Origin: Alistipes sp. CHKCI003
Lineage (GTDB): Bacteria > Bacteroidota > Bacteroidia > Bacteroidales > Rikenellaceae
Length of the DNA: 64,000 nt
Assembly (NCBI RefSeq): GCF_900021155.1
Contig: NZ_FCNT01000012.1
Span: 124,001-188,000 of the forward strand
Reading direction: 5' to 3'
This document shows positions 50,690 to 58,914 of the stretch, one piece after another. A program made the position numbers and the translations under genes. Positions within the stretch are counted from its first letter, which is position 1; each line of letters starts with the position of its first letter. The notes beneath the pieces were generated by a model. The model was not told the origin of the DNA and searched no databases. It saw only the letters and a list, made by a program, of their open reading frames with translations.

Positions 50690-51091
50690 ACGGAGCGGCC
50701 GGCGAAGCGGGCACTCCCCGCCGCCCCACCCGATTGCCGCATCGCTCAACAATACGCGGCAAAACCGGCGAAGCTCACCCCGCCGCACGGAACGCTGCAT
50801 CGCATCATACGACACTTCGCCGCGCCCCACCACGGCAGCCCCACCACGACGGACGGTACCCCGACTTACCGCAGCACCGACGATACAACACTCCCGCAGT
50901 TCCCCGTTACACCGCAATGCACATCGCCCCGCCGTACCGCACGGCGTCGCCGCCATGCCGCACGACCGACGATGCACGACCTTTCGTCAGCCAGCCGGAC
51001 GGACGGAATATCCCGACGCTCCTCACGGACGGCCGCAGCGTTCTTTCCGAAACAAAATCGAATCCGCGGTACATTATCCCGAAAAAATGGT
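50690..51091. other. Gene-free interval after dus
   Basis: No gene is supported in these 400 bases. The composition is unusual on the plus strand: rich in C and poor in T, with many short CACCGCC- or CCGCAC-like strings. It ends at the promoter of the riboswitch transcript. Confidence 0.45.
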
Positions 51092-51099
51092 TACCTTTG
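51092..51099 (+). promoter_or_regulatory. -7 element for the cobalamin-riboswitch transcript
   Basis: TACCTTTG matches TAnnTTTG a few bases upstream of the riboswitch aptamer, so the aptamer would sit at the very 5' end of the RNA. Confidence 0.68.
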
Positions 51100-51106
51100 C
51101 CGCGCC

Positions 51107-51293
51107 AAGGTTTCCGAAGTAAGCTCAGGCTTACGGGAATCAATAGGGAACGCCGTGCAATTCGGCGACAGTACCTGCTGCTGTGAGTTCCGGTCCTCCC
51201 GACAGGGAGAGGACGACTCCGCCACACATAGCCACTGATCCTCGGCGATCGGGAAGGCGTCGGCGGAGAGGGGACAAGTCAGAAGACCTGCCT
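51107..51293 (+). ncRNA. Cobalamin (AdoCbl-class) riboswitch
   Basis: The stretch carries the conserved cobalamin-riboswitch blocks in order: AGGGAA-N2-CCGTGCAATTCGGC, then ACAGTACCTGCTGCTGTGA (the B12-box core region), a variable hairpin with CTCCC / GGGAG, GCCACTG, GGGAAGGCG, and the closing AAGTCAGAAGACCTGCC. It begins just after a -7 element and is followed by a terminator hairpin before the lipoprotein ORF. B12 binding is therefore expected to lower expression of that gene. The precise subclass cannot be assigned by eye. Confidence 0.9.
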
Positions 51294-51389
51294 TGCGCAC
51301 ATGCGTTACGCTCGCGGGTGTCGGGTCGTAATCGAACGGAAAGGTCTGTCGCTATTGTCGACGATTTCTCTTTGATTATCATCATACAG

Positions 51390-51419
51390 CCGCTTGTGTG
51401 CGAACGCAGGCGGTTTTTT
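51390..51419 (+). terminator. Terminator hairpin of the riboswitch expression platform
   Basis: CCGCTTGTG pairs with CGCAGGCGG (with G-U pairs) around a 6-base loop and is followed by T6, ending 28 bases before the lipoprotein ATG. It sits where a riboswitch-controlled terminator would be. Confidence 0.75.
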
Positions 51420-51447
51420 CGTGCACCTAACTTTAATTTTTATAAAT

Positions 51448-53325
51448 ATGATGAAGAAATTATTCGCTTTATGCTGCCTCGCGGCAGCCGCTTCCGGAGC
51501 TTGGAGCTGCTCGGACGATTACGACGACACGGCCCTCTGGCAGGAGATCGAACAGATCAAGACGGACATCGCATCGCTCAACCAGCAGGTTACGACCCTC
51601 CAGACGGCCATGCAGGACGGGGCGCTGATCACGCAAGTAACCGAAACGACCGAAGGCTACAAAATCGACTTCAGCAACAACACCTCGATCGTCGTCAAGC
51701 ACGGTACGAACGGCACGAACGGAACCGACGGTGCGAAGATCGGCGTGAAGGAGGAGAACGGCGTGCTTTACTGGACGCTGGACGGCGAGTTCATCACCGC
51801 ACCCGACTCGCAGGATAAGATTCCCGTAACGGGTGCCGCAGGCGCGACGGGTCCGGCCGGCACTGACGGGCATTCGCCCGTACTGGCCATCGACGACGAG
51901 GGATATTGGACCGTCGACGGCGAACGAGTAGAGTCGAACGGCGCCCCCGTGAAGGCACAGGGCGACTCGTTCTTCAGCGACGTGGATGAGACCGAGGACG
52001 CAGTGATTCTGACGCTGGCGGACGGTTCGGCCATCACGATCGCCAAATACAAGGAGAGCTCGCTGCTGTTCGCATCCGCCACGCTCTATGTTCCCGCAGG
52101 CCAGACGGCCGAAATCGCCTATACCGCCGCCCGGGTCGCTTTCGTGGAGCTGATGTCCGTACCCGAAGGCTGGACCGCCCGACTCGACGAGCAGACAGGC
52201 AAAGTAACCGTAACCGCTCCGGCAGCCGCAACGGCCGCCGCCAACGGCGAACGGCTGAAGATCGTCGGCACGGACCTCTCGGGCCACGCGATGATGGCGG
52301 CCGTGAAACTCTACTGCACGCTGCCCGAAGGCGGATTCTTCGTCTACAACGAAGGACAGCTCGGCAAGATGCCCGCTTCGGTCAACTACTACGTCGACGG
52401 CGAGTGGATCAGCCGCGTCTATGCCTCCGTCAATCCCGAACATCCGCTGGGCAACACGGGCGTTACGATGGTCCGCAACGCAACGAACGGTTTGACGTAC
52501 CTCACGGCCAAGGACGAGCACTTCATCGTCGAAACCGATGCGGACTTCAACTACAAGTCGGAGCTCTCCGGCGAAAATTACACCGACGAACTGCGACAAG
52601 TGATGGGCTTCACCGTATTCGACGCAACGACGGGTTACATCACCAGCGGCGGCGGCGTCTACAAAGTGGGCCTCAATCCGCTGACGCTCGACACGAACGA
52701 CCGCATTTTCGAAGGCTTCAACGGCGGTCGAGACCTCTGCGCCGCGGGCGGCAAACTCTACTTCATCTTCTCGAACAAGGTCTACTCCTACGATCCCTCG
52801 ACCGGCGGCGCCCCCACCGAACTCTGCGACGCCGCGACCGGTTTCGTTACGCTGAACGACGGTTCGGTATGGGCTGCCAACAACACGCAGATCGTTCGGA
52901 TCGACCCCGCAAACGACAAGGTAACGACCATCCCGACAGGCGATTACTCGCTCTATTTCAATTCGATGGCCTACACTCCCCGCTCCCTTGCAGCCGCTCC
53001 GGACGGCAGCAGCCTCTACTTCATCCAACAGATCGGAAGCGGCTGGAGCGTTTACGGCAAGGCACTGGGCAAATACGACGTCGCCACCGGCACATTCTCC
53101 GATCTGTGGTCTATGCCCGAGGGATATTCGGTATACGGTTCGGGCGTTGCGGTCGATCCCGACACCGGAAAGATTTACGTCAGCTACACCAAGGACGGCT
53201 GGGGCGCCAACTATCTGAAAACCTACATCGCGGTCCTCGGTGCCGACGGCACATTGGAGCAAACGATCCCCTACCTGAGCGAGAACGAAACCATCTACTG
53301 GTTCCCGTCGATGATCGTATTCTGA
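51448..53325 (+). CDS. Cobalamin-regulated surface lipoprotein with DUF5074/BtuG-like propeller
   Basis: From ATG 51448 the product is 625 residues. A lipoprotein signal (MMKKLFALCCLAAAASGAWSC) is followed by an acidic SDDYDD, which suits surface export. A coiled coil follows (LWQEIEQIKTDIASLNQQVTTLQTAM), as in DUF4988 proteins. Next come collagen-like Gly-x-x runs (GTNGTNGTDG; GAAGATGPAGTDG), each followed by a WT.DGE module. The C-terminal 330 residues begin GGFFVYNEGQLGKMPASVNYY and have blade-like repeats (SVWAANNTQIVRIDP; YGKALGKYDVATGTFSDLW), as in DUF5074/YncE-type propellers such as the B12-binding BtuG. The riboswitch upstream supports a role in capturing B12 or a relative. No BtuB gene is adjacent. 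Confidence 0.8.
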   Translation: MMKKLFALCCLAAAASGAWSCSDDYDDTALWQEIEQIKTDIASLNQQVTTLQTAMQDGALITQVTETTEGYKIDFSNNTSIVVKHGTNGTNGTDGAKIGVKEENGVLYWTLDGEFITAPDSQDKIPVTGAAGATGPAGTDGHSPVLAIDDEGYWTVDGERVESNGAPVKAQGDSFFSDVDETEDAVILTLADGSAITIAKYKESSLLFASATLYVPAGQTAEIAYTAARVAFVELMSVPEGWTARLDEQTGKVTVTAPAAATAAANGERLKIVGTDLSGHAMMAAVKLYCTLPEGGFFVYNEGQLGKMPASVNYYVDGEWISRVYASVNPEHPLGNTGVTMVRNATNGLTYLTAKDEHFIVETDADFNYKSELSGENYTDELRQVMGFTVFDATTGYITSGGGVYKVGLNPLTLDTNDRIFEGFNGGRDLCAAGGKLYFIFSNKVYSYDPSTGGAPTELCDAATGFVTLNDGSVWAANNTQIVRIDPANDKVTTIPTGDYSLYFNSMAYTPRSLAAAPDGSSLYFIQQIGSGWSVYGKALGKYDVATGTFSDLWSMPEGYSVYGSGVAVDPDTGKIYVSYTKDGWGANYLKTYIAVLGADGTLEQTIPYLSENETIYWFPSMIVF

Positions 53326-53347
53326 TCCACCGAACGCTCCCGAATGC

Positions 53348-53389
53348 AAAAGAGGCTGTCCGCGCGGTTTGCGCAGACAGCCTCTTTTC
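53348..53389 (+). terminator. Intrinsic terminator of the cobalamin-regulated gene
   Basis: A long stem (AAAAGAGGCTGTC with its complement, one mismatch, then GCGC/GCGC) ends in T4, 23 bases after the stop codon. Its GGCTGTC / GACAGCC core resembles the ends of the repeat pair around pgm-dnaA. Confidence 0.85.
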
Positions 53390-55941: not shown

Positions 55942-57162
55942 ATGGAAAGCAAAGTCGAAATCATCCAGATCAACATATCCGGCGAAGACAAGCCCGGCAT
56001 GACTTCGTCGCTCACCGAAATTCTGGCCCGCTACGACGCCTTCGTCCTCGACATCGGACAGGCCAACATCCACCAGTCGTTGACGTTGGGCATCCTCTTC
56101 CGGACGACCTCCGACAAATCGGGAAACATCATGAAAGAGTTGCTCTTCAAGGCATCGGAGCTGGGCGTGATGATCCGTTTCACCCCGATTTCCGAAGCGG
56201 ACTACAACGGTTGGGTCAGCCTTCAGGGCCGCAACCGCTACATCATCACCCTGCTCGGGCGGCAGGTTACGGCCCGCCACATCGCCGAAGTTACGCGCGT
56301 GGTGGCCGAGCACGGGCTCAACATCGACGCCATCCGCCGCCTCACGGGACGTGTACCGCTGCGCGAGGACGACCGCGCAGCCAAATCGTGCATCGAACTC
56401 TCGGTCCGCGGCTCGCTCGACGATGCGGCCAAGAGCGCCATGCAGGAGCGCTTCATGAACCTCTCGGACATGGGGCTCGACGTTTCGTTCCAGAAGGACG
56501 ACATCTACCGCCGCAGCCGCCGCCTGATCTGCTTCGACATGGATTCGACGCTCATCGAGACCGAGGTGATCGACGAACTGGCCGAACGGGCCGGCGTCGG
56601 CGACCGCGTGCGCGCCATCACGGCCAGCGCCATGCGGGGCGAGATCGACTTCCGCGAAAGTTTCACGCAGCGCGTGGCGCTCCTCAAGGGGCTGGATGTC
56701 TCGGTGATGGAGGACATCGCCCGCCGCCTGCCCATCACCGAAGGGCTCGAACGCATGATGACGATCCTCAAGCGTGTGGGTTACAAGACAGCAATCCTTT
56801 CGGGCGGTTTCACCTATTTCGGCAACTATCTGCGCCAGAAATACGGATTCGACTACGTCTATGCCAACGAACTGGAGATCGAGGACGGACGGCTCACTGG
56901 CCGCTTCACGGGCGAGGTGGTCGACGGACGCCGCAAGGCCGAACTGCTGCGGCTGCTGTGCCAGTTCGAGGAGATCAACCTCGCGCAGTCGGTGGCCGTG
57001 GGCGACGGTGCCAACGACCTGCCGATGCTGAGCATCGCGGGTCTGGGCATCGCATTCCACGCCAAACCCAAAGTGAAGGCCACGGCCCGGCAGTCGATCT
57101 CGACCATCGGGCTCGACGGCATCCTCTACTTTCTCGGTCTCAAGGACTCCCGCATCGAATAA
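55942..57162 (+). CDS. serB: Phosphoserine phosphatase with N-terminal ACT domains
   Basis: SerB performs the last step of serine synthesis. From ATG 55942 the product is 406 residues. Two ACT-like segments (IQINISGEDKPGMTSSLTEIL; IITLLGRQVTARHIAEVTRVVAEHGLNIDAI) are probable serine sensors. A HAD domain follows with motif I CFDMDSTLIETEVIDELA, motif II AILSGGFTYF and motif III AVGDGANDLPMLSIAGLGIAFHAKPKV. This long ACT-HAD form is usual in Bacteroidota. It is followed 11 bases later by the DUF5689 lipoprotein. Confidence 0.95.
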   Translation: MESKVEIIQINISGEDKPGMTSSLTEILARYDAFVLDIGQANIHQSLTLGILFRTTSDKSGNIMKELLFKASELGVMIRFTPISEADYNGWVSLQGRNRYIITLLGRQVTARHIAEVTRVVAEHGLNIDAIRRLTGRVPLREDDRAAKSCIELSVRGSLDDAAKSAMQERFMNLSDMGLDVSFQKDDIYRRSRRLICFDMDSTLIETEVIDELAERAGVGDRVRAITASAMRGEIDFRESFTQRVALLKGLDVSVMEDIARRLPITEGLERMMTILKRVGYKTAILSGGFTYFGNYLRQKYGFDYVYANELEIEDGRLTGRFTGEVVDGRRKAELLRLLCQFEEINLAQSVAVGDGANDLPMLSIAGLGIAFHAKPKVKATARQSISTIGLDGILYFLGLKDSRIE

Positions 57163-57173
57163 CCGGCAAAATC

Positions 57174-57974
57174 ATGTTTTGGCGCCTCTTCCGACACACC
57201 GTCATCCGCCGTCGCGGCCTGCTCTGCGGCGCGGTGCTCTCGCTGTTCTCCGCGGGTTGCTACGACGACGCCGGCACTCCCGCGACGACGATCGAAACTC
57301 CTCCGGCGACCACGACCCTCGCCGAACTGCACCGCCTCTATGCAGGTCGGACGGTCCGGATCGAAAGCGACATCTTCGTCCGCGGCCGTGTCGTTACGAG
57401 CGATCGCGCCGGCAATTTCTACCGCACGCTCGTCCTCGAAGAGCAGGGCGCTGCCGCGGAACTGATGGCCGGCATCGACGGTCTGCACAACGTCTACCCC
57501 GAGGGCTGCGAACTGACGGTCGGACTTCGGGGGCTCGCGCTCGGAGAAAGCTACGGCGTGCTGCAAATCGGCCGCCTCCCCGAAGCGGGCAGCGGCTATG
57601 CCACCGACTACCTCGGCTCGCGCGCCGCGCTCGATGCCCACGTCTTCCGCGGCGACACGTACTCCCCGCTGCGGCCGGCCGTCTGCACGATCGGCGAACT
57701 CACGCCCGACATGGCCGGACGGCTGGTCCGCATCGACGGCCTCCGCTACGCCCCCGAAACGGTCGAGGAGGCGACGTGGGCCGGATACAAACGCTTCACC
57801 GACGCCGATGGCAACACCATCCGCACCTACACGCGTGCGTATGCCGATTTCGCGGACCGGGCGATTCCCGAATGCGAGGTGCTCCTCGTCGGCATCCTCC
57901 AGTACACCTCGGGGGCGGACGACGCGCCCCGCTATCTGCTCAAACTGCGCGATGAGACGGATTGCTGGTATTAA
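57174..57974 (+). CDS. DUF5689-type lipoprotein, copy 1
   Basis: The 266-residue product has a basic start and lipoprotein signal (RRGLLCGAVLSLFSAGC). Then come LHRLYAGRTVRIESDIFVRGRVVTSDRAGNFYRTLVLEE, GLRGLALGESYGVLQIG and LGSRAALDAHVFRGDTY, which resemble the OB-fold-like DUF5689 domain (often seen as RGRV.S.D..GN..K.L.I.D). These surface or periplasmic proteins usually accompany TonB receptor systems; their role is unknown. It is probably in the serB transcript and directly precedes a paralogue. Confidence 0.8.
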   Translation: MFWRLFRHTVIRRRGLLCGAVLSLFSAGCYDDAGTPATTIETPPATTTLAELHRLYAGRTVRIESDIFVRGRVVTSDRAGNFYRTLVLEEQGAAAELMAGIDGLHNVYPEGCELTVGLRGLALGESYGVLQIGRLPEAGSGYATDYLGSRAALDAHVFRGDTYSPLRPAVCTIGELTPDMAGRLVRIDGLRYAPETVEEATWAGYKRFTDADGNTIRTYTRAYADFADRAIPECEVLLVGILQYTSGADDAPRYLLKLRDETDCWY

Positions 57975-58017
57975 GGCCCGGTCCAACCAGATCGGCATCC
58001 GGGGCAGTTCCGCGACG

Positions 58018-58914
58018 ATGTCTTCGCTGCGATCCTCCGCCGAGCGGCCGCGGCGGCAAACGCCCCGTTACCGTGCGATGCTGCGTGCGGCGGCCGGCAG
58101 CCTGCTGTTTGCGGCGGCTCTCGCAGGTGCGGCGTGCAACTCGGCCACACGCCTCGAATTCGACGATGAGAACGGACCCTTCGTCTCCATCGCCCATCTC
58201 AAATCGCTATGCCGGGGCTCATCCACCCGTCTGACACGGGAACTCAAAATCGAAGGGATCGTAACGGCCAACGACATACGGGACGAATTTCCCAAGACGC
58301 TCGTCGTGGAGGATGCCTCGGGCGGCATCGAAATCGCCGTGGACCGCACCGACCTCGCCAATCTTTTCCCATTGGGTGCGCGCGTCTCGGTCTACTGCTC
58401 CGGACTGGCGCTCGGCGACTACGGCGGCAAGGTGCAGTTAGGCGCCCCGCCCACGGGCGAATACAGCGTCGACCGCATTCCGGGCTCCGAGCTGGACCGC
58501 TACATCCGCTGCACGGCGCTCAATGCCGGCACGCGCCGTCCGCAGACAGTGCGGTTCGCCGAACTCACGGCCGGCGATGCGGACCGCTACGTGCGTTTCG
58601 AAACGGTCCGGTTCCTCGAAGCGGGCGAGCCGTGGTGCGGACGCGATCCCGAGACCGGAGCCTTGCAGACGACCGTGAGGACCCTCGCAGACTCCTCCGG
58701 CGGCAGATTTCCGGTGCGGGTCCTCCCCTCCTGCCACTATGCGGAGGAGCCCGTGCCGCCGGGCACAGGCTCCGTAAACGGGATCGTAGACTACTTCAAC
58801 GGAGAACTCTCGCTCCGCATCGTAAACTACGAGATCGACCTCGCTATCGCTGAAGCGCCTCCCAAAGCATGTCTTTCAGCTGCGGAATATTCAATCCCGA
58901 GACCGACGAGATGA
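58018..58914 (+). CDS. DUF5689-type lipoprotein, copy 2
   Basis: The 298-residue product is a diverged paralogue of the preceding gene. An Arg-rich lead is followed by a lipoprotein signal ([20 protein letters not shown]; an ATG at 58078 is an equally good start). Then [48 protein letters not shown] and [22 protein letters not shown], which repeat the OB-like pattern. Its last 71 bases overlap the 3' end of obgE on the other strand; the final residues after YEIDLAI look non-conserved. Confidence 0.75.

Follow-up and report, generated by a model that had tools for sequence, protein, structure and literature searches.

In a 64,000-nucleotide stretch of the genome of Alistipes sp. CHKCI003 (contig NZ_FCNT01000012.1, positions 124,001 to 188,000; hereafter, the window), a cobalamin riboswitch precedes a single gene for a 625-residue lipoprotein in which a β-propeller is mounted on a stalk. 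We think it fairly probable that this is a stand-alone unit, repressed by B12, for a BtuK-like surface lipoprotein that would capture corrinoids and deliver them to a BtuB–BtuG receptor encoded at a distance. The signal at its N-terminus would take the protein to the surface of the cell and possibly to vesicles; the DUF4988 stalk, with its predicted coiled-coil and collagen-like fold, would hold the BtuK-branch propeller away from the membrane; and the propeller would catch cobalamin or other corrinoids and hand them over. The stalk itself may be a reusable platform on which relatives mount other B12-type heads.

The transcription unit and its riboswitch

The sole Rfam match at gathering thresholds in the window is to the cobalamin family RF00174, at 51091-51309 on the forward strand (90.6 bits against a cut-off of 31.5, E = 4e-21), and it covers the full model from 1 to 189. 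It agrees with a preliminary description of this DNA, made from its letters, which had placed a cobalamin aptamer at 51,107-51,293. A chance riboswitch is ruled out by this score together with the repeated linkage of riboswitches to relatives of the gene, and a contig-end artefact by the position of the gene in the interior of a contig of 265,881 bases. The anatomy and coordinates originally described for the rest of the unit, all on the same strand, also proved correct, with the second terminator remaining a call by eye. A −7-like promoter box, TACCTTTG, can be read at 51092-51099 and agrees with the consensus of the Bacteroidota −7 element; inspection of the sequence by eye showed no −33 box, and the transcript probably starts near 51106. 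An intrinsic terminator hairpin with its T-run lies at 51388-51419 (in the terminator scan, a 12-pair stem with a 4-nt loop at 51388-51415 and then the T-run; the segment 51380-51430 folds with −19.1 kcal/mol, z −3.1), and the lipoprotein gene occupies 51448-53325. Beyond the gene, an inverted repeat with 18-nt arms that are 94% complementary (53348-53365 and 53371-53388) gives a terminator-like hairpin at 53348-53388, which we call by eye: the T's are part of the stem, and a simple terminator scan did not report it.

When 51091-51450 is folded to minimum energy, the 3′ side of the terminator (51405-51419) is paired with 51281-51297, the 3′ strand of the aptamer, which includes the B12 box and is the predicted antiterminator partner. 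This joint fold has −135.4 kcal/mol, compared with −130.5 when the aptamer and the downstream part are folded separately, and in the predicted folds the terminator and B12-box pairings are mutually exclusive. With 51106, the inferred start, as the first nucleotide of the fold, the mean probability is 0.52 for the terminator stem and 0.45 for the antiterminator. With little B12 in the cell, the 3′ strand of the aptamer would pair with the 3′ arm of the terminator and the gene would be transcribed; with B12 on the aptamer, the B12 box would be kept within it, the terminator would form, and transcription would stop. Judging from these folds, the riboswitch and the terminator that we found apparently act together as such an OFF switch. 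In Bacteroides thetaiotaomicron, control by cobalamin riboswitches has been proposed to work through premature termination (PMC12751083).

Architecture of the protein

The lipoprotein had been described as combining a coiled coil, a stalk of collagen-like Gly-x-x and WT.DGE stretches, and a propeller, and Pfam confirms this with DUF4988 and DUF5074. By eye, the translation begins with a lipoprotein signal peptide (residues 1-20), the lipid-bearing Cys21 of the lipobox, and an acidic export motif, CSDD, at residues 21-24 (51448-51519). The motif fits the pattern CS(D/E)2, which directs the export of SusG to the surface as well as into vesicles (PMC6222051), and we infer from it that the protein is on the cell surface and perhaps on vesicles. 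An AlphaFold2 model, of low confidence in this part, predicts a long helix over residues 28-56 (51529-51615) that would be the coiled-coil part of the stalk. DUF4988 (PF16378) spans residues 30-198 (51535-52041; 113.3 bits against a cut-off of 30), and the Gly-x-x and WT.DGE stretches lie inside this match and are thus part of the domain. A Rib-like domain at residues 231-280 (52138-52287) scores below the cut-offs, with 24.6 bits for RibLong (cut-off 27) and 30.8 for the YPDG repeat model (cut-off 40). The head, residues 296-625 (52333-53322), is a BtuK-like β-propeller of the seven-bladed type that matches DUF5074 (PF16819) with 138.1 bits against 27.2. The model was built with 17 aligned proteins and has a mean predicted local distance difference test (pLDDT) score of 72.1, and the means over residue blocks are about 78 for 291-625 and about 60 for 1-200. 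The N-terminal DUF4988 region is shared with hyaluronan lyases of the BT3328 family (NCBIfam NF058554, 63.8 bits over 2-282 against a cut-off of 1100), which differ in having a catalytic C-terminal part and, going by the name of the model, are not linked to cobalamin.

A tree places the propeller head on the BtuK side

In a single-sequence phmmer search of the PDB, the only matches up to E = 1 were two sequences of 9s6c (E = 0.012 and 0.015), a structure titled “B12 Binding protein - BtuK1”. A profile of 12 propellers again placed 9s6c first (93.8 bits) and BtuG second (87.0); apart from two unrelated weak ones, its solved-structure matches were all BtuK1 and BtuG chains. Fold comparison of the head model, in which VIA-align ranked the chains that Foldseek had found, also put 9s6c on top (Z 32.3 over 306 residues, root-mean-square deviation 2.4, 24% identity; template modelling score by target 0.79-0.81), followed in a tie by chains of BtuG2 and BtuG3 (Z about 29.3) and by 4r5o, the structure of BT1487 or BtuK2 (Z 29.2). 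In a tree of 59 rows, the window head is sister to a propeller from another Alistipes locus, L072 (100/99; L-numbers denote the genomic loci that we fetched, G-numbers genomes, and C-numbers contigs of the source genome), and falls with the BtuK rows in a 20-row set (99/98) that holds 15 further rows; the BtuG propellers form a separate clade (100/99) with the window head outside it. The clade tests, which were picked after the tree had been seen, did not reject a grouping of the window, L072, and three BtuK rows (p = 0.378) and weakly rejected one clade of the window head with BtuG (p = 0.032). BtuK1 of B. thetaiotaomicron binds cobalamin with a dissociation constant of 8.9e-11 M by surface plasmon resonance (PMC12751083).

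The preliminary description had proposed a BtuG-like propeller with a long stalk that works with a distant receptor, and had suggested comparing a predicted structure with BtuG2; on this reading, the protein would be a BtuG with an added stalk, docking as a lid on the distant BtuB. Part of this stood: the head belongs to the BtuG/BtuK superfamily and shares the fold of BtuG2, and BtuG proteins (BtuG2 is BT1954; 8bmz, 8bmx, 3dsm) likewise match DUF5074 in Pfam and are surface lipoproteins under cobalamin riboswitches. However, BtuK1 is nearer in structure, and the tree places the head apart from BtuG, although the rejection of a joint clade is weak. Moreover, BtuG is a plain propeller encoded beside BtuB, and BtuG2 is hinged on BtuB by a short linker (PMC10404256), whereas some 270 residues intervene in the stalked protein. 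Beside its BtuB, the genome already encodes a canonical BtuG that closely resembles BtuG2 (696 bits). We therefore regard a stalked BtuG as very unlikely. We give equally little credence to the idea that the head binds some other ligand, such as a siderophore, another cofactor, or a glycan, with the cobalamin riboswitch merely timing its expression. Other Bacteroides surface propellers do bind siderophores (XusB; PMC13142918), and the head is only 20-24% identical to BtuK and BtuG, but the solved relatives found by sequence are those just named, and the DUF5074 loci that we sampled lie mostly in cobalamin-riboswitch operons. An XusB-like siderophore propeller in particular is ruled out: XusB belongs to a different family, DUF4374, which is not among the 13 Pfam families listed for the protein up to E = 1, and the nearest structure is titled BtuK1.

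By sequence and by fold, the closest known system to the BtuK-like unit is thus the pair BtuK1 and BtuK2 (BT_1486 and BT_1487; 9s6c and 4r5o), which shares with it the DUF5074-type propeller, the lipoprotein character, the cobalamin riboswitch, and the side of the tree. A gene 79% identical to 9s6c occurs in a Bacteroides locus (L203, genome G577) with the order riboswitch, 462-residue propeller protein, 446-residue relative, BtuH-like gene, riboswitch, BtuB, propeller–BtuH fusion, and DUF4465-like gene, which matches operon 1 of B. thetaiotaomicron (BtuK1, BtuK2, BtuH1, riboswitch, BtuB1, BtuGH, BtuJ1; PMC12751083). The BtuK-type proteins of that locus have a short, weakly PKD-like N-terminus and sit in a btuH–btuB operon, whereas the window protein has a DUF4988 stalk and about 24% identity to BtuK1. 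Given that it stands alone between dus and mgsA, with no btuH/btuB operon, we call it BtuK-like rather than BtuK.

A stand-alone position and a putative distant receptor

Five cobalamin riboswitches were found in the source genome (2.87 Mb, 99.94% complete). The first precedes the stalked gene, the second a btu operon (DUF4465, BtuH-like, leucine-rich Recep_L, BtuG, BtuB, and BtuF), and the remaining three a lone BtuH-like gene, an AspT-type permease, and nrdD. By BtuH-like, we mean the presence of PKD_3 domains and/or similarity to the two PKD_3 lipoproteins of this genome, such lipoproteins being equated with BtuH via PMC8941943. That the gene stands alone, without btu genes nearby, and that its receptor would be encoded at a distance had both been anticipated, and the genome-wide searches support this. 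Searches with DUF5074, PKD_3, a divergent BtuB, and FecCD matched other contigs, the exceptions on the same contig being the stalked gene itself and a sub-cut-off FecCD match at C51:94741, outside the window; BtuD was not searched for, and the other reading frames of the window were not each run against Pfam. The BtuB–BtuG operon is on contig C92. As for a second BtuB partner, the divergent BtuB of L077 as a query matched two pieces of the C92 BtuB and, weakly, a sequence on C22, but nothing else, and a TonB-receptor-like open reading frame on C4 was rejected as a BtuB, having only 29 bits against the BtuB of the genome. The presence of B12-dependent MetH, BtuB, BtuG, BtuF, and one FecCD permease over the cut-off indicates that corrinoid uptake matters to the organism.

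In the window, dus and mgsA are 2.8 kb apart, with the unit between them. We fetched 26 mgsA loci; dus is also present in the window's own locus and in four relatives, and lies beyond the fetched stretch in the other 21. In the four relatives, the gap is 64 (L214), 132 (L212), 179 (L211), and 241 (L213) bases, with no gene between. Thus, the unit looks as if it had been inserted whole, and given this adjacency, a remnant of a whole operon left in place is the less likely explanation. No mobile-element repeat was recognised at the edges of the unit. The nearest head, that of L072, is likewise encoded by a lone gene behind a riboswitch, at a different location, and in genome G023, to which it belongs, dus and mgsA are neighbours (L211).

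The other riboswitch-linked genes of the source genome deserve mention in their own right. The lone BtuH-like lipoprotein on C62 (L011:6110-7855, reverse strand), with three PKD_3 domains and its own riboswitch, is a second dispersed btu lipoprotein. On C4 (L008:10507-12544), the gene that comes first downstream of the riboswitch encodes a permease of the AspT/YidE type (PF06826 Asp-Al_Ex, TrkA_C), and homologues occur in six other btu loci (L168, L177, L178, L179, L205, and L206), which makes it a possible corrinoid-linked transporter of the inner membrane. The anaerobic ribonucleotide reductase gene nrdD also follows a cobalamin riboswitch (L009:1732-4287, reverse strand), as do NrdD-like genes in L096, L112, and L118. 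Within the window, two adjacent reading frames at 57150-58914 on the forward strand include segments that, by eye, resemble a tandem pair of related lipoproteins.

Stalks and heads in relatives

DUF5074 matches are found in 169 of the 180 genomes of the genus. Twenty of them reach at least 115 bits, at 18 loci including the window, and the motif scan shows a cobalamin riboswitch at all 18, which in some cases lies several genes upstream. Rfam confirmed the riboswitch at each of the 11 loci tested, and RF00174 was found in 16 of 16 sources over two Rfam batches of relatives' loci; riboswitches in loci outside the Rfam-tested set come from the motif scan only.

The preliminary description had suggested a new architecture. 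The plan of stalk plus propeller is, however, present at seven other loci, all with a BtuH-like gene and six with a BtuB-like gene; what is found only in the window, among the loci examined, is a BtuK-side head on the stalk. In L075, L076, L077, L078, and L084, the DUF4988–DUF5074 gene comes first after the riboswitch and is followed by BtuH-like, BtuB, and BtuG-type genes; in L074, which is the same as L101, it is followed by a BtuH-like gene, with no BtuB within the fetched stretch; and in L140 of Dysgonomonas, it comes after BtuB, BtuG-type, and BtuH-like genes. DUF4988 was recognised by similarity to the window stalk in L075, L076, L078, L084, and L140, and Pfam was used for L074, L077, L083, and L085; in the last two, the same slot holds a DUF5074 protein that lacks DUF4988. 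These seven proteins share domain order, riboswitch, and lipoprotein start with the window protein, but their propellers lie on another branch and are 20-24% identical to the window head. In L143, a short contig, a DUF4988 piece and a DUF5074 piece are in separate open reading frames with no riboswitch in reach.

The stalk also carries a head of another kind. At L081:5617-7485 (reverse strand) and L109:5420-6697 (forward strand), DUF4988 is joined to a jelly-roll DUF4465 head of the BtuJ family in the first gene after the riboswitch of a full btu operon, and the DUF4465 proteins BtuJ1/2 bind B12 (PMC12751083). The stalk therefore seems to serve as a platform on which B12-binding heads can be exchanged. 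Furthermore, the eight DUF4988-bearing propellers (L083 and L085 excluded) do not form one clade, the tree requiring at least four changes (p = 1.3e-37), so stalk and propeller must have been joined or parted more than once. The window stalk is nearest to those of G087 (45% over 5-273; L079/L082) and G109 (40% over 2-341; L074), and the window head to that of G023 (40% over 294-625; the stalkless L072). With stalk and head nearest to different genomes, the protein appears to have arisen by recombination of pieces known from the genus. A headless arrangement is seen in L082:8741-16342 (reverse strand), where the riboswitch is followed by a 328-residue DUF4988 protein without a recognised head, a 1402-residue repeat protein that is leucine-rich by eye, and a 764-residue DUF5074 protein.

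Wider distribution

Among 17 relatives obtained with one search pattern (from Alistipes, Bacteroides, Phocaeicola, Dysgonomonas, Marinilabiliaceae, Chitinophaga, Pseudoflavitalea, and other Bacteroidales), 16 have a riboswitch by motif, the exception being L143. The window head was matched in 19 of 393 genomes of the order, the source genome included, and the 18 other loci have a riboswitch by motif in 12 cases and a BtuB-like or BtuH-like gene in 14. Some DUF5074 propellers lie within much larger proteins of 929 to 1442 residues (L167:3109-7398 and L169:8400-11189 on the forward strand, L171:6238-10566 and L173:7155-10472 on the reverse strand); by eye, these have signal peptides without a lipobox and may use another secretion route.

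Does the head capture corrinoids?

Several observations weigh against a B12-repressed capture protein. The main doubt about the capture role is that the paralogue BtuK2 (BT1487, 4r5o), which has the same fold, did not bind cobalamin (PMC12751083), and the identity of the head even to BtuK1 is only about 24%. The five named pocket residues of BtuG2 are not recognisable in the head, although at about 20% identity this mapping carries no information, and they are absent from BtuK1 too. The stalk half of the AlphaFold2 model is poor. In silico, the terminator and antiterminator states of the leader RNA are near balance, the pseudoknot of the aptamer being outside the fold model. No btuB, btuG, or btuH adjoins the gene. 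Finally, six of the 18 order-level loci show no motif riboswitch in the fetched stretch (L169, L170, L179, L180, L183, and L184; that of L179 stops just upstream of btuB), and four of them (L170, L180, L183, and L184) have neither a riboswitch nor a BtuB-like or BtuH-like gene.

These doubts lead to the alternative that we take most seriously, although we consider it unlikely, namely that the protein is a non-binding relative, a B12-repressed surface lipoprotein that aids vesicle release, scaffolds other Btu lipoproteins, or docks on a receptor and does not itself hold corrinoid. BtuK2 has a companion in this respect in BtuL, which also failed to bind cobalamin and which promotes the early release of vesicles (PMC12751083); 4r5o does fit the head model; and the same stalk occurs headless directly after the riboswitch of L082. 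Nevertheless, the nearest structure is that of BtuK1, which does bind and which scores 3 Z units higher than BtuK2, and in the tree a long branch leads to the BtuK2-type row. Capture by a BtuK-like head is thus the reading that we favour.

Implications

No description of the stalked form was found in the literature searched for DUF5074, DUF4988, and BtuK, and the main text of PMC12751083 contains no mention of propeller, stalk, PKD, or Alistipes. The parts of the unit, its regulation, and its nearest relatives are already known, and the unit is probably a new architecture within the known kit for B12 scavenging rather than a new kind of system. A broader proposal can be made only tentatively: that the DUF4988 stalk is a swappable display platform of B12 scavenging in Bacteroidota, bearing several head folds (DUF5074 propellers from two or more branches and DUF4465 jelly rolls), and that the window shows an inserted, stand-alone “fishing-rod” class of capture protein that would catch corrinoids at a distance from the membrane or on vesicles and feed a receptor encoded elsewhere, with no transporter gene of its own adjacent.

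Competition for B12 in the gut is strong, and it is not clear how the several surface binders found in Bacteroidota share the work. The present case connects BtuK, a recently named protein, with the broad DUF5074 family and offers a testable picture of a modular kit, with one stalk, exchangeable B12-type heads, and one kind of riboswitch. It indicates that a B12-type head can exist outside a btuB operon, and it lets one ask directly whether such proteins hand the vitamin to a BtuB encoded at a distance, act on vesicles, or hoard it.

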